A model generated the notes under the pieces. That model made no database searches. It worked only from the letters and a program-made list of their open reading frames with translations, and was not told the DNA's origin. A DNA stretch of 64,000 nucleotides from Arenimonas donghaensis DSM 18148 = HO3-R19 (GTDB taxonomy: Bacteria > Pseudomonadota > Gammaproteobacteria > Xanthomonadales > Xanthomonadaceae): contig NZ_AVCJ01000003.1 of the NCBI RefSeq assembly GCF_000743535.1, positions 1 to 64,000 on the forward strand. The letters run 5' to 3'. Shown here piece by piece: positions 42,186 to 52,641 of this stretch. The position numbers and the translations under genes are program-made. Position 1 is the first letter of the stretch; the number at the start of each line of letters is the position of its first letter.

Positions 42186-42203
42186 GTGTCACGCAGGGGT
42201 CAC
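42186..42203 (+). promoter_or_regulatory. Pho-box-like site upstream of phoB
   Basis: GTGTCAC (42186-42192), a 4-base spacer and GGGTCAC (42197-42203) form a direct repeat with 11-base phasing, the geometry of the PhoB site (CTGTCAT-n4-CTGTCAT). Each half matches the consensus at five of seven positions. It lies 50 bases before the phoB GTG and suggests autoregulation. Confidence 0.6.
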
Positions 42204-42253: not shown

Positions 42254-42946
42254 GTGCAAAAGCGCATTCTTATTGTTGATGACGAACCCGCCATCCGGGA
42301 CATGGTGGCCTATGCCCTGCGCAAGGCGGACTATGAACCCGCCCACGCCGGCGACGCCCGCGAGGCCCAGGTCGCGATCTCCGAGAAGGTGCCCGACCTG
42401 ATCCTGCTCGACTGGATGCTGCCCGGCACCTCCGGCCTGGAGCTGGCCCGGCGCTGGCGCAAGGACGAGCTGACCCGCGACGTGCCGATCATCATGCTCA
42501 CCGCCCGCGGCGAAGAGAACGACCGGGTTTCTGGCCTGGAGTCGGGCGTCGACGACTACGTCGTCAAACCCTTCAGCGCCCGCGAGCTGCTGGCCCGCAT
42601 CCGGGCCGTGATGCGCCGCGCCCGCGACGACGAGGACGACGGTTCGGTGGCGGTCGGCGCCCTGCGCATCGACGGCGCCGCGCATCGCGTGTTCGCCAGC
42701 GACCAGCCGCTGCACGTCGGCCCGACTGAATACCGGCTCCTGCATTTTTTCATGACCCACGCCGAGCGCGTCTATACCCGCACCCAGCTGCTCGACCACG
42801 TCTGGGGCGGCAACGTCTACGTCGAGGAGCGCACCGTGGACGTGCACATCCGGCGCCTGCGCAAGGCGCTTGAACCCTTCGGCCTGGACACCATGGTGCA
42901 GACCGTGCGCGGCGCCGGCTACCGCTTCTCGGCGGCCGCGGACTGA
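42254..42946 (+). CDS. phoB: Phosphate regulon response regulator PhoB
   Basis: A 230-residue OmpR-type transcription factor. The receiver domain (about 3-120) has acidic residues D9-D10, the phosphorylated D53 in LLDWMLPG and K105; the winged-helix domain (about 130-228) includes the RTVDVHIRRLRKAL recognition region. The start is GTG at 42254. Position directly before a PhoR-type kinase and ppk supports the phosphate assignment. An upstream Pho-box-like site is consistent with self-control. Confidence 0.95.
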   Translation: MQKRILIVDDEPAIRDMVAYALRKADYEPAHAGDAREAQVAISEKVPDLILLDWMLPGTSGLELARRWRKDELTRDVPIIMLTARGEENDRVSGLESGVDDYVVKPFSARELLARIRAVMRRARDDEDDGSVAVGALRIDGAAHRVFASDQPLHVGPTEYRLLHFFMTHAERVYTRTQLLDHVWGGNVYVEERTVDVHIRRLRKALEPFGLDTMVQTVRGAGYRFSAAAD

Positions 42947-42959
42947 GGCCGGCCAGCAC

Positions 42960-44318
42960 ATGAGCGTTTCGATCCTGCTGCGGCTGGCCTGGCGCCAGTC
43001 CCTGATTCGCCTGCTGCTGTTTTACGCCGCGGCGCTGGGGCTGGGCGTGCTTCTGGGGGAGCCGTGGTGGGCGCTGGGCCTGGCCACCTGCGTGGTCGCC
43101 GCGCGCGCCTACTGGCGGCTTTACCGGGTGCTGCGCTTCCTGGATTGGCGCAAGCAGCTGCGCACCGTCGACGGGCAGGGCCTTTGGGCGGCGCTGGAGA
43201 CCCTGATCCACCGCCGCCAGACCGAGAACCGCCGGCGCGGACGACGCCTGGTGGGGCTGCTGCGCGCCTACCGCCAGGCCGCCACCGCCATGCCCGACGG
43301 TGCCCTGGTGATCGGCCGCCGCGACGGCCGGCTCGTCTGGTTCAACAAGACCGCCCGGCACCTGCTGGGCCTGCGCTATCCGCAGGCCCTGGGCGAGCCG
43401 CTGGTCGAGACCTTCGGCGCCCAGGCGCGGGTGCGCGAATGGCTGGCGGCGGGACACACCGACGAACCGCTGACCGACCTGGCCAGCCCGGCCGACCCGA
43501 TGGTCCGCATCAGCCTCCGGCTGATCCCCTACTCCAGCTCGCAGTGGCTGGTGGTGGTGCGCGACGTCAGCAAGCTGATGCGGCTTGAACAGGTGCGCCG
43601 GGACTTCGTCGCCAACGTCTCGCACGAACTGCGCACCCCGCTGACCGTGGTGCACGGCTACCTGGACATGATCGAGCCGGCGGAACACCCCGAGCTGGCG
43701 ACCATGGTCGAGGAAATGCGCCGCCAGTCCCAGCGCATGACCCAGCTCGTCGAAGACCTGCTGACCCTGTCCCGGCTCGAGGCCCAGGAATCGCTGCCCG
43801 AAGAATCCCTGGCGATGGCGCCGATGCTGGTGACGCTGCGCCGCGAAGCCGAAGCCCTGAGCCAGGGCCGGCACACTGTGCGCGTGGAGGACACCGCGGG
43901 CTGCGACCTCACCGGCTCCACCAAGGAGCTGCACAGCGCTTTCTCCAACCTGGTGTCCAATGCCATCCGCTACACCCCGACCGGGGGCCAGGTGCTCATC
44001 CGGTTCGAGCCGGTGGCCGGTGGTGGCGTGCGCCTGGCCGTGCAGGACACCGGCTACGGAATCCCGGAACAGCACCTTCCGCGCATCACCGAGCGTTTCT
44101 ACCGGGTTTCCACCAGCCGCTCGCGCGAGTCCGGTGGCACCGGCCTGGGCCTGTCGATCGTCAAGCACGTACTGAGCCTGCACCAGGCCCGGCTGGAGGT
44201 GCAGAGCGAGGTCGGCCGCGGCAGCACCTTTGCCTGCGTTTTCGGGCCGGCCCGGGTCAGGATGCGCCCGGCGCCGGGCAGCGCGGGCGCCGACGAAGGC
44301 CCGGAAGACGTAAGCTAA
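42960..44318 (+). CDS. phoR: Phosphate regulon sensor kinase PhoR
   Basis: A 452-residue membrane histidine kinase. Two close N-terminal hydrophobic segments (about 16-32 and 37-52) with almost no periplasmic loop are typical of PhoR, which senses phosphate through the Pst transporter rather than directly. A PAS domain (about 110-205) precedes the HisKA box with H222 in VSHELRTPL, then N-box NLVSNAIRYTP, DTGYGIP and GGTGLGLSIVKH. It begins 13 bases after phoB. The pst/phoU genes are not in the window. Confidence 0.95.
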   Translation: MSVSILLRLAWRQSLIRLLLFYAAALGLGVLLGEPWWALGLATCVVAARAYWRLYRVLRFLDWRKQLRTVDGQGLWAALETLIHRRQTENRRRGRRLVGLLRAYRQAATAMPDGALVIGRRDGRLVWFNKTARHLLGLRYPQALGEPLVETFGAQARVREWLAAGHTDEPLTDLASPADPMVRISLRLIPYSSSQWLVVVRDVSKLMRLEQVRRDFVANVSHELRTPLTVVHGYLDMIEPAEHPELATMVEEMRRQSQRMTQLVEDLLTLSRLEAQESLPEESLAMAPMLVTLRREAEALSQGRHTVRVEDTAGCDLTGSTKELHSAFSNLVSNAIRYTPTGGQVLIRFEPVAGGGVRLAVQDTGYGIPEQHLPRITERFYRVSTSRSRESGGTGLGLSIVKHVLSLHQARLEVQSEVGRGSTFACVFGPARVRMRPAPGSAGADEGPEDVS

Positions 44319-44322
44319 GGGC

Positions 44323-46413
44323 ATGAGTCCCGAACCCGCCGACACCAGCGCCGCGCCGGCCGACCCGCAAGCGCCCGAGCTCTACCTCAACCGCGAACTC
44401 TCGCAGCTGGAGTTCAATTTCAGGGTCCTGGCCCAGGCCAAGGACCCGCGGGTGCCGCTGCTCGAGCGGCTCAAGTACCTGTGCATCAGCTGCACGAACC
44501 TCGACGAATTCTTCGAGATTCGCGCCGCCACCGTGCGCACCGCGCTGCAGTTCGGCGGGCCGCTGCCGCCGGACGGCATCCAGCCGTCCCGGGCCCTGGA
44601 GCTCATCCACGACAAGGCCGCCGAACTGGTGGCCGAGCAGTACCGCTACTGGAACGAGGCCCTGCGCCCCGAGCTCAATGCCGCCGGCATCCGCATCCTC
44701 GCCAATTCGGCCTGGAACGCGCGCCAGCGCAAGTGGCTGCACCGTTATTTCCGCGACGAATTGCTGCCGGTGCTTTCGCCCCTGGGCCTGGACCCGGTGC
44801 ATCCGTTCCCGCGCATCCTCAACAAGTCGCTCAACGTCGTGGTGGTGCTGGAAGGCAAGGACGCGTTCGGCCGCAACGGTGGCATGGCCATCGTCCGCGC
44901 GCCGCGCTCGCTGCCGCGCATCATCCAGCTGCCGCCGGAAATCTCCGGCGGCCAGCATGATTTCGTGCTGCTTTCGGCGGTGCTCACCGCCTTCGTCGAC
45001 GACCTGTTCACCGGCATGCGGGTCAAGGGCGCCTACCAGTTCCGCGTGACCCGCAACTCCGAGCTGTTCGTCGACGAGGAGGAAGTCGAAAACCTCGCCA
45101 GCGCGCTCAAGGACGAACTGGCCAGCCGCGGCTTCCGGCCGGCGGTGCGGCTCGAGATCGCCGAGAACTGCCCCCGGCCGATCGTGCACACCCTGCTGCA
45201 GAACTTCGGCCTGAGCGAAAACGCGGTGTACCGGATCAACGGGCCGGTCAATCTCAACCGGGTCACCCAGGTCTACGACCTGGTCGACCGGCCGGACCTG
45301 AAGTTCCCGGCCTTCAAGCCCGGACCCGTGGCGATCGACGAAGAATCCCCGTTCGAAACCCTGCGCCAGCGCGACGTGCTGCTGCACCACCCCTACCAGG
45401 GTTTCCAGTCGGTGCTCGACCTGCTCCAGCACGCCGCCAACGACCCGGACGTGCTGGCGATCAAGCAGACGCTCTACCGCACCGGCAAGGACAGCAAGAT
45501 CATCGACCACCTGATCACGGCCGCCCGCAACGGCAAGGACGTGACGGTGTGCGTCGAACTGCGGGCGCGTTTCGACGAAGAAGCCAACATCCACCTGGCC
45601 GACCAGCTCCAGGAGGCCGGCGTGCAGGTGATGTACGGCGTGGTGGGCTACAAGACCCACGCCAAGATGATGTTGATCGTGCGCCGCGAGGGCAAGAAGC
45701 TGCAGCGCTACGTGCACCTGGGCACCGGCAACTACCACGCCGGCACTGCCCGCGCCTACACCGACATCGGCCTGATGAGCTCGCATCCCGATATCGCCGC
45801 CGACGTGCACGACATCTTCCAGCAGCTGTCCGGGCTGGCGCCGGCGATCAAGCTGCGCAAGATGATGCAGTCGCCCTTCACCCTGCACAAAGGCATCCTC
45901 GCCCGCATCGAGCGCGAGGCCAAGCTGGCGCGCGCGGGCAAGGGCGGCCACATCATCGCCAAGATGAACGCGCTCAACGAGGCCCAGGTCATCCGGGCGC
46001 TTTACGAGGCATCCCAGGCCGGCGTGAAGATCGAACTGATCGTGCGCGGCGCCTGCTGCCTGCGCCCCGGCGTGCCCGGGATGTCCGAGAACATCACGGT
46101 GCGTTCGGTGGTCGGCCGTTTCCTGGAACACAGCCGCGTCTACTGGTTCGGCAACGGCGGCAAGGCCGAGACGTTCTGCTCCAGCGCCGACTGGATGGAG
46201 CGCAACCTGCTGCGCCGGGTCGAGACCTGCTTCCCCATCCTCGACCCGCGCCTGGCCGAACGCGTCTACGACGAGGAGTTGGCGAACTACCTCAACGACA
46301 ACCAGCAGGCCTGGGAACTGCGCGAGGACGGCAGTTATGTCCGCGTCTCGCCGGCCGCCGACGAGATGCCCTATTCTGCCCAGGGCGCGCTCCTGGCCAA
46401 ACTTTGCGGATGA
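44323..46413 (+). CDS. ppk1: Polyphosphate kinase 1
   Basis: Makes inorganic polyphosphate from ATP. The 696 residues show the four-domain PPK1 organisation; the autophosphorylated histidine is His446 in YKTHAKMMLIVRR, and His472 in LGTGNYHAGTARAYTD is the second conserved histidine. The start LYLNRELSQLEFNFRVL is diagnostic. The ATG lies four bases after phoR, and the ppx start is four bases after the stop, so phosphate sensing and polyphosphate turnover are cotranscribed. Confidence 0.97.
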   Translation: MSPEPADTSAAPADPQAPELYLNRELSQLEFNFRVLAQAKDPRVPLLERLKYLCISCTNLDEFFEIRAATVRTALQFGGPLPPDGIQPSRALELIHDKAAELVAEQYRYWNEALRPELNAAGIRILANSAWNARQRKWLHRYFRDELLPVLSPLGLDPVHPFPRILNKSLNVVVVLEGKDAFGRNGGMAIVRAPRSLPRIIQLPPEISGGQHDFVLLSAVLTAFVDDLFTGMRVKGAYQFRVTRNSELFVDEEEVENLASALKDELASRGFRPAVRLEIAENCPRPIVHTLLQNFGLSENAVYRINGPVNLNRVTQVYDLVDRPDLKFPAFKPGPVAIDEESPFETLRQRDVLLHHPYQGFQSVLDLLQHAANDPDVLAIKQTLYRTGKDSKIIDHLITAARNGKDVTVCVELRARFDEEANIHLADQLQEAGVQVMYGVVGYKTHAKMMLIVRREGKKLQRYVHLGTGNYHAGTARAYTDIGLMSSHPDIAADVHDIFQQLSGLAPAIKLRKMMQSPFTLHKGILARIEREAKLARAGKGGHIIAKMNALNEAQVIRALYEASQAGVKIELIVRGACCLRPGVPGMSENITVRSVVGRFLEHSRVYWFGNGGKAETFCSSADWMERNLLRRVETCFPILDPRLAERVYDEELANYLNDNQQAWELREDGSYVRVSPAADEMPYSAQGALLAKLCG

Positions 46414-46417
46414 CCCG

Positions 46418-47938
46418 ATGCCGATCGAAGCCACGCCACCGCTGAAGGACGGCGACCTGCTGGCAGCGGTGGACCTGGGATCGAACAGCTTCCACATGGT
46501 CGTCGCCCGCTACCTGATGGGCCAGCTGCGCATCGTCGACCGCATCAAGGAAACCGTGCGCCTGGCCGAAGGCCTGGACGGCCAGGGCGGCCTCGACCCG
46601 GCGGTCATGCCGCGCGCACTGGACTGCCTGGCCCGCTTCGGCCAGCGCATCCGCAGCCTGCCGGCGCCGCGCGTCCGCGCCATCGCCACCAATACCGTGC
46701 GCCAGCTGGCCAATCCGCAGGCCTTCCTGATGCCAGCGGAAACCGCCCTGGGCCACGGCATCGAAGTGGTGGCCGGACGCGAGGAAGCCCGCCTGATCTA
46801 CCTGGGCGTCGCCCACGGCAATCCGCCCGACCCCGGCAAGCGCCGGCTGGTGATGGACATCGGCGGTGGCTCCACCGAAGTCATCATCGGCGAGGGCCTC
46901 GAGGCGGTGGAGCGCGAAAGCCTGCAGATGGGCTGCATCGCGACCACCCGGCGGTTCTTCGGCGACGGCCGGATCAACCGCAAGCGCTGGAAGGAGGCCC
47001 GCATCGAACTGGCGGCCGAGTTCCAGCAATTCGCCGAGGCCTACCGCCGGCGGGGCTGGCAGGAAGCCATGGGCTCGTCGGGAACCATCAAGGCGATCTG
47101 CGACGTGTCGGTGAAGATGAAGCTCACCAAGGTCTCGATCACCGACGCCAGCCTGGCGACCATCCGCGACAAGCTGCTCGACTTCGATACGCTCGACAGC
47201 ATCAAGCTGCCCGGGCTGTCGTCCGAACGGCGTCCCATTTTCGCCGGCGGCCTGCTGGTGCTGGACGCGGCCTTCGGCGCCCTTGGCATCGAACGCATGT
47301 ATGTCAGCGACCACGCCATGCGCGAGGGCGTGCTGTACGACCTGATCGGCCGCAACCGCCAGGACGACCCGCGCGCGGAGTCGATCCGGGCGCTTCAGGT
47401 GCGCTACGACATCGACCCCGAACAGGCGGCCCGCGTGGAAGCCACGGCGATGAGCCTGTTCGACCAGGCCGAGCTGCCCTGGGGCCTGGACGCCGACAAC
47501 CGGCGCCTGCTGGCCTGGGCCGCGCGCATCCACGAAATCGGCCTGGCCATCGCCCACAGCCAGTACCACCAGCACGGCGCCTACCTGGTCGAACACTCGG
47601 ACATCGCCGGTTTCTCCCGTACCGAACAGCAGACCCTGGCCGCGCTGGTGCGCAACCAGCGCCGCAACTTCAACCCGGCCAGCTTCGACAAGGTGCCCGA
47701 CCGCCTGATGGCCAATATCCAGCGCTGCGCCTTGCTGCTGCGGCTGGCGGTGCTGATGCACCGCAGCCACGACAGTGACCCGCTGCCGGTGGTGGAACTG
47801 GACGTCGACGGCGACGAACTGCTGCTGCGCCTGCCCAAGCGCTGGCTCGATGGCCATCCGCTGACCCGGCTGGACCTGGAAACCGAGCGCGAACTGCTCG
47901 AGGGCTTCGGCCACAAGATGGTGCTGCGCACCCTGTGA
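46418..47938 (+). CDS. ppx: Exopolyphosphatase Ppx/GppA family
   Basis: Degrades polyphosphate from the ends (or pppGpp in the GppA branch). The 506 residues have the sugar-kinase/actin-like ATPase start AAVDLGSNSFHMVVARY, the second phosphate loop MDIGGGSTEVIIGEG and a C-terminal HD-like helical domain with ARIHEIGLAIAHSQYHQHGAYL. Adjacent ppk1 favours the exopolyphosphatase role. The ATG at 46418 is chosen because it directly follows the ppk1 stop. Confidence 0.92.
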   Translation: MPIEATPPLKDGDLLAAVDLGSNSFHMVVARYLMGQLRIVDRIKETVRLAEGLDGQGGLDPAVMPRALDCLARFGQRIRSLPAPRVRAIATNTVRQLANPQAFLMPAETALGHGIEVVAGREEARLIYLGVAHGNPPDPGKRRLVMDIGGGSTEVIIGEGLEAVERESLQMGCIATTRRFFGDGRINRKRWKEARIELAAEFQQFAEAYRRRGWQEAMGSSGTIKAICDVSVKMKLTKVSITDASLATIRDKLLDFDTLDSIKLPGLSSERRPIFAGGLLVLDAAFGALGIERMYVSDHAMREGVLYDLIGRNRQDDPRAESIRALQVRYDIDPEQAARVEATAMSLFDQAELPWGLDADNRRLLAWAARIHEIGLAIAHSQYHQHGAYLVEHSDIAGFSRTEQQTLAALVRNQRRNFNPASFDKVPDRLMANIQRCALLLRLAVLMHRSHDSDPLPVVELDVDGDELLLRLPKRWLDGHPLTRLDLETERELLEGFGHKMVLRTL

Positions 47939-47951
47939 GCCCGTAACACCC

Positions 47952-47969
47952 GCGTCATGCGCTGGTCAT
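47952..47969 (+). promoter_or_regulatory. Pho-box-like site upstream of the glycosyltransferase
   Basis: GCGTCAT (47952-47958), a 4-base spacer and TGGTCAT (47963-47969) repeat GTCAT with exact 11-base spacing, as in PhoB sites. It lies in the 64-base gap between ppx and the glycosyltransferase gene, 33 bases before the ATG. Confidence 0.55.
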
Positions 47970-47985
47970 GGGCCTGGCACATGCC

Positions 47986-48002
47986 GGCGGCAACCTGCCG
48001 CC
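47986..48002 (+). promoter_or_regulatory. Hairpin abutting the glycosyltransferase start codon
   Basis: GGCGGCA-acc-TGCCGCC is a perfect 7-bp stem whose last base touches the ATG at 48003. No Shine-Dalgarno sequence is visible in the usual place. It might lower or control translation. It might also be chance in GC-rich DNA. Confidence 0.45.
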
Positions 48003-49148
48003 ATGGACAAGCGCCTGCACATCGAACTGGTCACCGAAACCTATCCGCCCGACGTCAACGGCGTGGCCCTGACCGTGCACTCGCTGGAACAGGGGCTGCG
48101 CGGACTGGGCCACGCCGTCGGCGTGGTCCGTCCCGAGCGCGAGCACGACGGGCCGCGGCCCGATCCGATGCTGATGCTGGTCGAAGGCGCCCCGATCCCG
48201 CGTTATCCGGGCCTGCGTTTCGGCTTGCCGGCCGGGCGCCGGCTCCTGGCGCGCTGGCAGGCGCAGCGGCCGGACGCGGTTTATATCGCCACCGAGGGTC
48301 CGCTGGGCTGGTCGGCGCTGCGGGCGTGCCGACAGCTTGGCATCCCGGTCGCCACCGGCTTCCACACCCGCTTCGACGATTACGTCGGACGCTACGGCGC
48401 GGGTTTCCTCAGCCCCTGGGTGTTCGCCTGGCTGCGTCGTTTCCACAACCGCGCCGACGCCACCCTGGTGCCGACGCGGGAGCTGCGCGACCAGCTCGCG
48501 CAGCAGGGCTTCCGGCGGGTCGCGCACCTGGGCCGGGCGGTGGACACCGAAGCCTTCCATCCGCGCTTCCGCGACCCGGCGCTGCGCCAGCGCTGGGGCG
48601 CGGCGGTCGATGCGCCGGTGCTGGTGCACGTGGGCCGGATCGCCCCGGAGAAAAACCTGCCGCTGGCCGTGCGCGCCTATCGCGAACTGCAGAAGCACCG
48701 CCCCGATGCGCGCTTTATCTGGGTCGGCGACGGCCCGGCGCGCGCCGGCCTGCAGGCGGCGAACCCGGACTTCCTGTTCGCTGGCGTACTGCGCGGTGAA
48801 CACCTGGCGCGACACTTCGCCAGCGCCGACCTGTTCTGTTTCCCCAGCCTCTCGGAAACCTTCGGCAACGTGACGCTCGAAGCCATGGCCAGCGGCATCG
48901 CCACCATCGCGTTCGACTATGGCGCTGCCCGCGAACACCTGCGGCACGGGCTGCACGGGGCCGCCGTCGAGGTGGGCGATGAGCCGGGCTTCGTCCGGGC
49001 ACTGCTGGCCACGGCCACCGGCGAGGGCCTGCGGCACCAGGGCGACGCAGCCAGGCGTGCGGTCCAGCACCTGCACCCCGACCAGGTGGCGAAGGACTTC
49101 GCGGCCCTGCTCGGCGGGCTGGGCGGTCATCGGGAGCAGGCGGCGTGA
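48003..49148 (+). CDS. GT4 glycosyltransferase, mannosyl/glycolipid type
   Basis: A 381-residue GT-B retaining glycosyltransferase. The N-terminus VTETYPPDVNGVALTVHSL is the pattern of GDP-mannose-dependent alpha-mannosyltransferases (MgtA) and of SqdX-like glycolipid synthases; the C-terminal half has GRIAPEKNLPLAV and the E-x7-E motif in SETFGNVTLEAMASG. Soluble, probably attached to the inner membrane face. The preceding Pho-box-like site and the coupled PAP2 phosphatase suggest glycolipid synthesis on diacylglycerol under phosphate limitation. The acceptor is inferred, not shown. Confidence 0.85.
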   Translation: MDKRLHIELVTETYPPDVNGVALTVHSLEQGLRGLGHAVGVVRPEREHDGPRPDPMLMLVEGAPIPRYPGLRFGLPAGRRLLARWQAQRPDAVYIATEGPLGWSALRACRQLGIPVATGFHTRFDDYVGRYGAGFLSPWVFAWLRRFHNRADATLVPTRELRDQLAQQGFRRVAHLGRAVDTEAFHPRFRDPALRQRWGAAVDAPVLVHVGRIAPEKNLPLAVRAYRELQKHRPDARFIWVGDGPARAGLQAANPDFLFAGVLRGEHLARHFASADLFCFPSLSETFGNVTLEAMASGIATIAFDYGAAREHLRHGLHGAAVEVGDEPGFVRALLATATGEGLRHQGDAARRAVQHLHPDQVAKDFAALLGGLGGHREQAA

Positions 49149-49675
49149 ACGCCCGGGTCCGTCGAATGTCGGACCGCGAACACGCCTGGTGCCTGGTAGC
49201 CAACCGCTGGGGCACGCGCGCAGTCGTGCGCGCCTACTTCCGCGCGGTCAGCCGCCTCGGCGACGGCGCCTTCTGGTACGCGCTGATGGCCGCTCTGGTC
49301 GTCCTGGACGGTTGGCGCGGCCTGGCGGTTTCGGCGCAACTGGCCGCGACCGGCCTGGTGGCGCTGCTGCTGTACCGCAAGCTCAAGCGCTGGACCCGGC
49401 GCCCGCGCCCCTTCGCCGCCGATGGCCGCATCCGCGCCTGGATGGCGCCGCTGGACGAATTCAGCTTCCCGTCCGGCCACACCCTGCACGCGGTAGCGTT
49501 CACGACGGTTGCCCTCGCCCACTACCCGGCCCTGGCACCGCTGCTGCTGCCCTTCGCTGCAAGCGTCGCGGCATCGCGCGTGGTCCTGGGCCTGCACTAC
49601 CCCAGCGACGTACTCGCCGCCACCGGCATCGGCCTGGCCCTGGGCAGCCTCTCCCTGCTGATCCTGCCCCTGTAG
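49145..49675 (+). CDS. PAP2 family lipid phosphatase
   Basis: A 176-residue membrane phosphatase of the PAP2 superfamily. The three signature motifs are present: KRWTRRPRP, PSGHT (within FSFPSGHTLHA-like SFPSGHTLHA) and SRVVLGLHYPSD. About four hydrophobic segments surround them. Likely substrates are phosphatidic acid or undecaprenyl-type lipid phosphates. The GTG start overlaps the glycosyltransferase stop (GTGA), so the two are made together; a supply of diacylglycerol to the glycosyltransferase is a plausible division of work. Confidence 0.88.
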   Translation: MNARVRRMSDREHAWCLVANRWGTRAVVRAYFRAVSRLGDGAFWYALMAALVVLDGWRGLAVSAQLAATGLVALLLYRKLKRWTRRPRPFAADGRIRAWMAPLDEFSFPSGHTLHAVAFTTVALAHYPALAPLLLPFAASVAASRVVLGLHYPSDVLAATGIGLALGSLSLLILPL

Positions 49676-49758
49676 CAGTCCCATCAAGGGACTTCAGTCC
49701 CCGGCTCTGGTCTTGCCTTGCGGCAAGAACGGCGTCGCCGCTCAGGACATTCGTGGGT

Positions 49759-49868
49759 GGAGGCGCCGCGCCTTCGCCCCGGCCGACACGCCGTGAACCC
49801 ATCCATGGGGGCTCGTCGTCGACATCCATGTCTCCGACGGTCGGCCGGGGCGAAGACGCGACACCTCC
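49759..49868 (+). repeat. Copy A of the 110-base palindromic element
   Basis: Arms 49759-49787 and 49840-49868 are 29-base inverted repeats with three mismatches. The central loop carries its own smaller symmetry (catccatg). It is the reverse-oriented counterpart of copy B. Confidence 0.85.
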
Positions 49869-50001
49869 TCAAGAAATCGTCGTTGGCGAGGTGAGAGCGG
49901 CATTTGCTCGAGGACCCGGTCGCGACTTGCGCCCGTGGCACTTGGCTCTTGGCTCTTGGCTTCTCGCTCTTGCTTGCCAGCCGGCCACCGAACCCTATCG
50001 A

Positions 50002-50111
50002 GGAGGTAGCGTGCGGTCGCCCTGGCCGACCTTCGGAGACAAGGACGTCGACGAAGAGCCTGCATGGAGGTACTTGCGGCGTGTCGGCCAGGGCGACCGC
50101 ACGCTGCCTCC
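50002..50111 (-). repeat. Copy B of the 110-base palindromic element
   Basis: Arms 50009-50030 and 50083-50104 are perfect 22-base inverted repeats, extended to 29 bases (50002-50030 with 50083-50111) with one mismatch. Its reverse complement aligns along its whole length with copy A. Confidence 0.88.
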
Positions 50112-50221
50112 ACCCGCGGATGCAACACGCGCCCAAGCCCTTCTTGCCGCAGGGCAAGACCAGAGAGCGGGGCTGAAGTCCCACTCACGCCGAAGAGAAA
50201 GAGCAGCAGCTGAAGGGAGCC

Positions 50222-50824
50222 CTACGCTGCCAGGGGGCGCGTCCAGAAGGTCAGCGGTTTTTCGGAGGGCGTACTTTCGCCGAGTTCGCGCCAGGCCAGG
50301 TGGACGGTGAGTCCGGGCTGGCGCTGGTAGCCACGCTTGGCCCAGAAGTCTTCGTTGCCGCGGTGGCCCGGGGGGCGCCGGGGATCGTCCGCGGGACGGT
50401 CGACCGCGCAAAAGGCCGTGAGGCGGAAACGACCCAGCGCCGAGGCATGGGCCTCGCGTTCGTCGAAAAAACGATGACCCAGGCCGCGTCCGCGCCAGGC
50501 CGGCAGCAGCACCGATTCGCCGAAATAGAAAACCTCGTCCACCGCCCGCCCTGCCTCCAGGAAGGGCTTCTGGAACTCGGGGCTGTCGTCCGCCAGCGGC
50601 AGGCCGGTCGAGGCGCCGATGACCTGGTCGCCGTCGAAGGCCAGCACCACCACGCTGTCGGCGGACCTCACGTAGGCCTGCAGGTATTCGCGTTCGTATG
50701 CGGCGTCGCCGTCGTACAGATAGGGCCAGTCGCGGAACACCTGCGTGCGCAGCGCCGCGACGGCCTCCAGCCAGGGCACGAGGCCCTGGCCCGTCACCCG
50801 CCGCAGGCCGATGCCGTCGCTCAC
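50222..50824 (-). CDS. GNAT family acetyltransferase
   Basis: A 200-residue protein with the GNAT fold: the beta-4 segment GESVLLPAWRGRGLGHRFFDERE contains the acetyl-CoA-binding Q/RxxGxG/A-type loop (RGRGLG), and FWAKRGYQ near the end is typical of the family. The substrate is unknown. The GTG start at 50824 overlaps the stop of the DUF885 gene by four bases (GTGA); an in-frame ATG at 50848 would add eight residues. It is the distal gene of the DUF885-GNAT pair. Confidence 0.82.
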   Translation of the reverse strand: MSDGIGLRRVTGQGLVPWLEAVAALRTQVFRDWPYLYDGDAAYEREYLQAYVRSADSVVVLAFDGDQVIGASTGLPLADDSPEFQKPFLEAGRAVDEVFYFGESVLLPAWRGRGLGHRFFDEREAHASALGRFRLTAFCAVDRPADDPRRPPGHRGNEDFWAKRGYQRQPGLTVHLAWRELGESTPSEKPLTFWTRPLAA

Positions 50825-52641
50825 TTCCCGGCCTGCGCCTTGATCCACGCGTCCACGCGCTGCTCGAGCAGGCTCAGCGGAAGGTCGCCGCCGGTCAGCA
50901 GCAGGTCGTGGAAAGCCGCCAGGTCGAAGCGATCACCCAGGCGCGTCTTTGCCCGTTCGCGCAACGCCAGGATCCTGTTCATGCCCACCTTGTAGGCCAG
51001 GGCCTGCCCCGGCATCACCAGGTAGCGTTCGATTTCGGCGACCACGTCGGTCTCGGGCATGCCGGCTTTTTCCAGCATGTAGGCGATGGCCTGCTCGCGC
51101 GTCCAGCGCTTGTCATGCAGTCCGGTGTCCACCACCAGCCGCACGGCGCGCATCATCTCGCCCTGCAGGCGGCCCAGGTTGTCCAGCGGCTCGTCCTGGA
51201 AGCCCAGCTCCCAGGCCAGCTGCTCGGTGTACAGCGCCCAGCCTTCCGAAAACGCGGTGAACGGCAGCACCTTGCGGAAGGTCGGCACGCCGGTCAGTTC
51301 CTGCTGGATCGTGGTCTGGAAGTGGTGGCCCGGAATGGCCTCGTGGTAGGCCAGCGTGCGCATGCCGAAGCGCGCCACTTCCGCGGTGTTGCGCAGGTTG
51401 ATGAAGAACTTGCCGGGGCGCGAGCCGTCGAAGGCCGGCGGCTGGTAGTAGGCGCCGGGCGCGGTCTTTTCGCGGAACTCGGGCACGCGCTCCACCTCGA
51501 CGCCCTGCCGGGGCCGGACGTTGAAGACACCGTCCAGGCCGGCATCGATTTCTTCGATGATGGCGGTGAAGTCGGCGATGATCGCGGCGCGGCCTTCATC
51601 GGTGTCGGGATACAGCTGGTCGGGCCGCGTGGCGATCTGCTGAACGCGCTCGCCGATGCTGCCTTCGACCAGGCCTTCGCCGACCAGGATGGCGTCCATT
51701 TCGGCCTCCAGGCGCGCGACCTCGTCCAGGCCCAGCTGGTGCACCTGCGCCGGCGTCATGTCGGTGCTGGTGTGCATGCGCACGGACCAGGCGTAGAACG
51801 CCTCGCCCTCGGGCAGGGCCCAGACGCCGTGGTTGCCCCGGGTCTTGGGCAGCAGGCCGGCGTAGTAGTCGATGAAACGCTGGTAGGCCGGATAGACCTG
51901 CCCGGCGACCGCCGACCGGACCTGCTTGAGCAAGTCCTCGCGCTCGTCCGGTGCCACGGCGTCGGCGTCGAGCTTGGCCAGCCGTTCGTCGAAGGACGTG
52001 TAGAGGATGTTGTCGGTCGGCGCGGCGCCGATGAAGGCGCGCATTTCCGCCAGCACCTTCTCGACCACGAAGGTCGGCGGCAGGATGCCCGCCTGCTCGC
52101 GCTCGTGCAGCCCGGCCAGGACCTGTTCGGCCATCACCGGGAACTGCCGCAGCCGCGCGACGTAGTCGTCGGCGTCGCCGCGCGAGCGAAGCCCGTGCTG
52201 GGCGGCCATGAAGCTGGGCAGTTCGCTTTGCACGCCGAACAGCTGGTTGAGCGGGTAGTTGTGCTGGTAGAAGCGTTCGCCGTCCTGCTGGATGGCCAGG
52301 AAGTATTCGAGGATGTCGTAGGACAACTGGCTGCCCGGGTCCAGGTCGCCGCGGTCGTAGTCGCGCAGGGTGGCCAGGTCCTCGCGCAGCTTTGCCTGCA
52401 TGGCCCGCGCCTGCGCCGGCGACCGGTCGGACAGTTCGTCGCCGTACCAGTTCAGCCACGGCGGCAGCATGCCCAGCGAGGTCAGCAGCTCGGGGTCGTC
52501 CAGGGCGTATTCGATGAACACCCGCTCGTAGAACCAGCCGATCTTCAGCGGCTTGCCGTAGGCGGTGTGCAATCCCAGGCCCGTGGCGGCAAGCAGGACG
52601 GCCAGCAGCGCCCAGGCGATGAACTTGAACAGGGTCTTCAT
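50821..52641 (-). CDS. DUF885 family metallopeptidase-like protein
   Basis: A 606-residue envelope protein. The N-terminal hydrophobic segment (about 5-24) is a signal anchor. The metal-type motif HEAIPGHHFQ begins at His432, the HExxxGHH pattern of the DUF885 family, some members of which are dipeptide or amide hydrolases. The ATG at 52641 is chosen for its GGGAGAA ribosome site; the frame is open further upstream towards rlmJ without a better start. Substrate unknown. Confidence 0.87.
   Translation of the reverse strand: MKTLFKFIAWALLAVLLAATGLGLHTAYGKPLKIGWFYERVFIEYALDDPELLTSLGMLPPWLNWYGDELSDRSPAQARAMQAKLREDLATLRDYDRGDLDPGSQLSYDILEYFLAIQQDGERFYQHNYPLNQLFGVQSELPSFMAAQHGLRSRGDADDYVARLRQFPVMAEQVLAGLHEREQAGILPPTFVVEKVLAEMRAFIGAAPTDNILYTSFDERLAKLDADAVAPDEREDLLKQVRSAVAGQVYPAYQRFIDYYAGLLPKTRGNHGVWALPEGEAFYAWSVRMHTSTDMTPAQVHQLGLDEVARLEAEMDAILVGEGLVEGSIGERVQQIATRPDQLYPDTDEGRAAIIADFTAIIEEIDAGLDGVFNVRPRQGVEVERVPEFREKTAPGAYYQPPAFDGSRPGKFFINLRNTAEVARFGMRTLAYHEAIPGHHFQTTIQQELTGVPTFRKVLPFTAFSEGWALYTEQLAWELGFQDEPLDNLGRLQGEMMRAVRLVVDTGLHDKRWTREQAIAYMLEKAGMPETDVVAEIERYLVMPGQALAYKVGMNRILALRERAKTRLGDRFDLAAFHDLLLTGGDLPLSLLEQRVDAWIKAQAGK

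Follow-up and report, generated by a model that had tools for sequence, protein, structure and literature searches.

The window, by which we mean the whole 64-kb stretch of DNA that was analysed, comes from an Arenimonas-like bacterium (Xanthomonadaceae) and is contig C3 in a genome of 2.98 Mb. Matches to curated models confirmed the gene order phoB, phoR, ppk1, ppx, GT4 glycosyltransferase and PAP2 phosphatase that had been read from the sequence alone. The models passed by phoB, phoR and ppk1 are NCBIfam equivalogs, and ppx passes the exopolyphosphatase model. The features considered here are as follows:

42186-42203, plus strand: PhoB-type site (GTGTCAC-GCAG-GGGTCAC) upstream of phoB, from the genome pattern search
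42254-42946, plus strand: phoB (NCBIfam TIGR02154, 372.6 bits, cut-off 296)
42960-44318, plus strand: phoR, start codon inferred (NCBIfam TIGR02966, 389 bits, cut-off 334)
44323-46413, plus strand: ppk1 (NCBIfam TIGR03705, 930 bits, cut-off 466)
46418-47938, plus strand: ppx, exopolyphosphatase, start codon inferred (NCBIfam TIGR03706, 316 bits, cut-off 307)
47941-47980, plus strand: putative PhoB-type array of four half-sites in 11-base steps, whose end lies 22 bases ahead of the ATG of the glycosyltransferase gene
48003-49148, plus strand: GT4 glycosyltransferase of 381 aa, a putative diacylglycerol glycosyltransferase (Pfam/NCBIfam matches, motifs, tree, structural model)
49145-49675, plus strand: PAP2 lipid phosphatase of 176 aa with a GTG start (Pfam PAP2, 1.2e-20; motifs, structural model)

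The last two genes are coupled, as had been proposed: at 49145-49148 the sequence GTGA holds both the start codon of PAP2 and the stop codon of the glycosyltransferase gene. The glycosyltransferase matched Pfam Glyco_transf_4 (2.5e-29) and carries the motifs NGVALTV at residue 19 and EX7E at residue 285, and its AlphaFold model (pLDDT 88) has a GT-B fold. The structure search gave only generic GT-B matches, which do not indicate the acceptor, and the PDB sequence search, which returned PimA/BshA, was not decisive. The closest named relatives by this protein are Arenimonas terrae, A. metalli and A. fontis.

The PAP2 protein has a complete set of catalytic motifs (KRWTRRPRP, SFPSGH and SRVVLGLHYPSD), corresponding to the superfamily patterns KX6RP (K81-P89), PSGH (P109-H112) and SRX5HX3D (S144-D155), all of them invariant in the alignment; the catalytic motifs of the glycosyltransferase are conserved in alignments as well. 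The nearest PDB folds to its AlphaFold model (pLDDT 94) were the PAP2-type PGP phosphatase of B. subtilis, LpxE and PgpB. It shares the fold and all three catalytic motifs with these enzymes, but it is small (176 aa) and only 20-27% identical to the solved members. The PDB sequence search returned LpxE/PgpB and was not decisive, and sequence and fold fit PgpB, LpxE and PAP activities alike. Phosphatidic acid is the substrate we prefer, more weakly than we favour the role of the glycosyltransferase given below.

Between PAP2 and the next gene lies a composite inverted repeat (49688-50182), with two 183-base arms that are 77% complementary, each with a 29-base stem. The sequence GGGACTTCAGTCCC occurs in four copies in the window (up to one mismatch), compared with 0.01 expected, and the repeat is possibly a REP- or MITE-like element. 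An Rfam search of 46000-51000 returned no matches.

The PhoB-type array and its conservation

The sequence-only reading had described a site of exact 7-4-7 geometry before the glycosyltransferase, and each of its parts is present: GCGTCAT (47952-47958), GCGC and TGGTCAT (47963-47969). While this geometry stood, the site proved to be the core of a larger array of four half-sites (CCGTAAC, GCGTCAT, TGGTCAT and CTGGCAC; 47941-47980) separated by the spacers ACCC, GCGC and GGGC. The pair thus has CTGTCAT-type direct repeats in 11-base steps upstream of a gene, the pattern by which members of the Pho regulon are recognized. A simple sigma-70 scan found no sigma-70-like promoter near the array.

Genome-wide tests consisted of pattern and family searches. 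The core pattern GTCAYN6GTCAY matched twice in the 64-kb window, against 0.29 expected, and seven times in the 2.98-Mb genome; the reversed pattern matched the genome twice. Four of the seven matches lie at phoB (one), at the glycosyltransferase-PAP2 pair (one) and at the divergent pstS/phosphate-selective porin promoter (two), and the other three are within open frames (L114, L117) or intergenic near argS (L118). The pstS and phosphate-selective porin (Porin_O_P) genes (L119, 390-2956; G000:C51) are transcribed divergently from one promoter in which both strands carry PhoB-type sites.

To score the array across relatives, three consecutive half-sites were sought in about 150 bases upstream of each orthologous glycosyltransferase and compared with first-order Markov shuffles, at a threshold of p ≤ 0.05. 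The footprint reached this threshold in 94 of 103 Xanthomonadales promoters (Arenimonas-like, 17/17; family and order level, 12/12; named Xanthomonadales, 65/74) and in 18 of 32 other gammaproteobacterial loci, and the conserved array usually lay 50-80 bases before the glycosyltransferase start. Among control promoters (rlmJ, ppx, ppk, phoR, PAP2, GNAT and DUF885), 0-9% reached p ≤ 0.05, and 45% of phoB promoters did so. We considered whether the array is a mere by-product of the neighbouring phoB. This was ruled out because the array is conserved at pairs distant from phoBR, for example in L054, L079, L098 and L104, where the stretches examined contain no phoBR-ppk-ppx. Taken together, the core matches in the genome and the footprint, including that at loci without phoBR, make PhoB control of the pair a well-supported prediction.

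The pairing of the two genes is near-obligate. At order level, all 110 loci have PAP2 next to the glycosyltransferase (some species occur in both samples); at class level PAP2 was detected in 29 of 34. The order of Pho box, glycosyltransferase and PAP2, which the sequence-only reading had suggested looking for in related genomes, is the usual one in the Xanthomonadales.

Glycosyltransferase clades and a probable lipid role

The earlier description of the glycosyltransferase as SqdX/MgtA-like turned out to be loose. Its best curated matches are GpgS and a monoglucosyl-diacylglycerol synthase, both far below cut-off, with the GlcNAc-phosphatidylglycerol synthase GpgS (NF053787) scoring 140.3 bits against a cut-off of 480. 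P. aeruginosa GpgS is a GT4 enzyme acting on phosphatidylglycerol (PMC12713373), and the glycosyltransferase here might likewise modify phosphatidylglycerol, with PAP2 acting on a lipid phosphate intermediate and the product keeping its phosphorus. We regard this as unlikely, since the score is so far under the cut-off, no deacetylase or flippase gene of the gpgSDF kind adjoins the pair, and a phosphorus-bearing product would misfit both PhoB control and the anti-correlation described next.

In a tree of gammaproteobacterial homologues, a PAP2-linked clade (support 100/99) and a second, PlcP-linked clade (100/98) are united in this sampling with 100/100 support, to the exclusion of a third group of glycosyltransferases. 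The query falls in the PAP2-linked clade, which is sister to the PlcP-linked one and not inside it, and is 35-44% identical to members of the latter. PlcP adjoins the glycosyltransferase in 25 of 31 second-clade loci, as in the plcP-agt operons known from the literature, and it is on this adjacency, not on characterised Agt sequences, that the label "Agt-type" for the second clade rests. The two types rarely share a genome. At order level both were present in 2 of 61 genomes, where 7.0 were expected (Fisher p = 0.0009), and at class level in 1 of 323, where 5.4 were expected (Fisher p = 0.017); neither test corrects for shared ancestry. Within the Arenimonas genus group both types occur, in different genomes, the PlcP-linked type being found in G001, G006 and G015. 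Outside the Xanthomonadales, a glycosyltransferase, plcP and PAP2 lie on one strand in one run in L142 (1414-4069) and L148. Because of the sister clade, the anti-correlation between the clades and these three-gene runs, we favour a role for the glycosyltransferase as a putative diacylglycerol (DAG) glycosyltransferase in lipid remodelling.

An assignment to surface glycans appears very improbable by comparison. The glycosyltransferase would then serve exopolysaccharide, lipopolysaccharide or protein glycosylation, with PAP2 recycling the undecaprenyl carrier; the GT4 and PAP2 families both contain such enzymes, and PAP2 matches undecaprenyl-diphosphatase models weakly. Yet no polysaccharide cluster is present at the locus, and neither the PhoB array nor a clade sister to PlcP-linked glycosyltransferases fits such a role.

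In L161 (3053-5863) a third-group glycosyltransferase gene has PAP2 and a gene for a YegS-type diacylglycerol kinase as neighbours, and members of this group in L136, L149, L173 and L190 lie beside either main glycosyltransferase. They perhaps add a second sugar.

Source of diacylglycerol and relation to known systems

That the genome lacks PlcP was considered and rejected, as a second match to the LpxH model (34 bits) turned out to be PlcP-like. This PlcP-family protein matches PlcPs of plcP-agt-type operons at 38-46% and the genome's own LpxH at 25%, and it is encoded in a second operon:

L193 5747-8286 (G000:C48), minus strand: olsF overlapping plcP, preceded at about 88 bases by a PhoB-like array

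The olsF gene encodes a bifunctional ornithine lipid synthase (680 bits, cut-off 620). The PhoB-like array before it had p < 0.05 in 17 of 19 scanned loci, and operon and array recur together across the Xanthomonadales. No PlcP was found beside the glycosyltransferase in the stretches examined at the 110 order-level loci.

Since PlcP is encoded elsewhere in the genome, PAP2 is not needed as a DAG source. The pair may be a glycolipid unit that takes its DAG from PlcP, while PAP2 is otherwise employed, for example in dephosphorylating lipid A (LpxE-like), undecaprenyl diphosphate or phosphatidylglycerol phosphate, for phosphate release or membrane tuning. This is a serious though less probable reading. 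Besides the operon with its own conserved array, it is favoured by the presence of LpxE and PgpB among the nearest solved PAP2 relatives and by the runs in L142 and L148; because these two genomes have PlcP and PAP2 together in a single run, the two enzymes may do different jobs. Against it, PAP2 is tied to the glycosyltransferase, and no common lipopolysaccharide or peptidoglycan genes occur in the neighbourhoods examined. Moreover, six genomes that carry the pair and are 97-100% complete (G002, G005, G021, G028, G030 and G037) gave no PlcP match, which means that the pair can do without PlcP.

We prefer, at a probability of roughly 70% for the mechanism as a whole, a PhoB-controlled GT4-PAP2 unit for lipid remodelling under phosphate starvation. 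At low phosphate, phosphorylated PhoB would bind the 11-base-step array and switch on the pair. The GT4 enzyme would move a sugar from a nucleotide sugar onto DAG on the cytoplasmic side of the inner membrane, and the predicted product is a phosphorus-free glycolipid that would replace phospholipid. The coupled PAP2 would contribute DAG and release phosphate by dephosphorylating phosphatidic acid or a lipid monophosphate related to it, and extra DAG would come from the PlcP phospholipase of olsF-plcP, the second operon with a PhoB-like array. Enzymes of the GT4 family act on the cytoplasmic side, and the active sites of PgpB/LpxE-type phosphatases are turned towards the periplasm; DAG made by PAP2 would therefore need to move across the membrane, as DAG readily does.

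Lipid remodelling under phosphate starvation had been proposed from the sequence alone. The footprint, the clade, the anti-correlation and the glycosyltransferase-plcP-PAP2 runs together give good support to control by PhoB, to a conserved unit of two genes and to a lipid role. The accompanying claim that PAP2 makes DAG fared less well: genomes with the pair and without PlcP speak for it, but olsF-plcP could supply DAG.

Proteobacterial lipid remodelling under phosphate starvation has so far been described mainly through PlcP-Agt. This module is known in SAR11, Agrobacterium and P. aeruginosa (PA3219-PA3218), and the plcP-agt enzymes make MGDG and GADG (PMC4796936, PMC8528852). The pair resembles it in having a GT4 enzyme of a probable sister clade, an upstream Pho box and an operon partner that cleaves lipid phosphate. 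However, the partner here is a PAP2 phosphatase and not the PlcP metallophospholipase, the glycosyltransferase belongs to a separate, well-supported clade, and PlcP, where present in Xanthomonadaceae, lies mostly in an olsF-plcP operon elsewhere. The GpgSDF system, the glucosaminyl-phosphatidylglycerol operon of P. aeruginosa, also has a GT4 enzyme acting on a glycerolipid and provides the best curated HMM match (PMC12713373), but it differs in its deacetylase and flippase, whereas the pair has a PhoB array and a PAP2 partner. Our search of the open-access literature found no description of a glycosyltransferase-PAP2 lipid pair or of olsF-plcP, in agreement with the earlier supposition that this arrangement is undescribed. 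The pair is probably a variant of PlcP-Agt remodelling with a different partner enzyme, and not a new kind of system.

If this is true, a PAP2-partnered version would extend remodelling to the Xanthomonadales, including Xanthomonas, plant pathogens and Stenotrophomonas, lineages in which our literature search turned up no report of it, would explain the usual absence of the PlcP-linked glycosyltransferase from their genomes, and would suggest a second source of DAG. More tentatively, at somewhat under even odds, Xanthomonadales and many other Gammaproteobacteria may combine a PhoB-controlled glycosyltransferase-PAP2 unit, drawing DAG de novo from phosphatidic acid via PAP2 alongside or instead of PlcP turnover, with a PhoB-type olsF-plcP operon that makes ornithine lipid and recycles phospholipid. 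The membrane consequences would be worth knowing, because PlcP-Agt glycolipids alter the polymyxin sensitivity of P. aeruginosa (PMC8528852).
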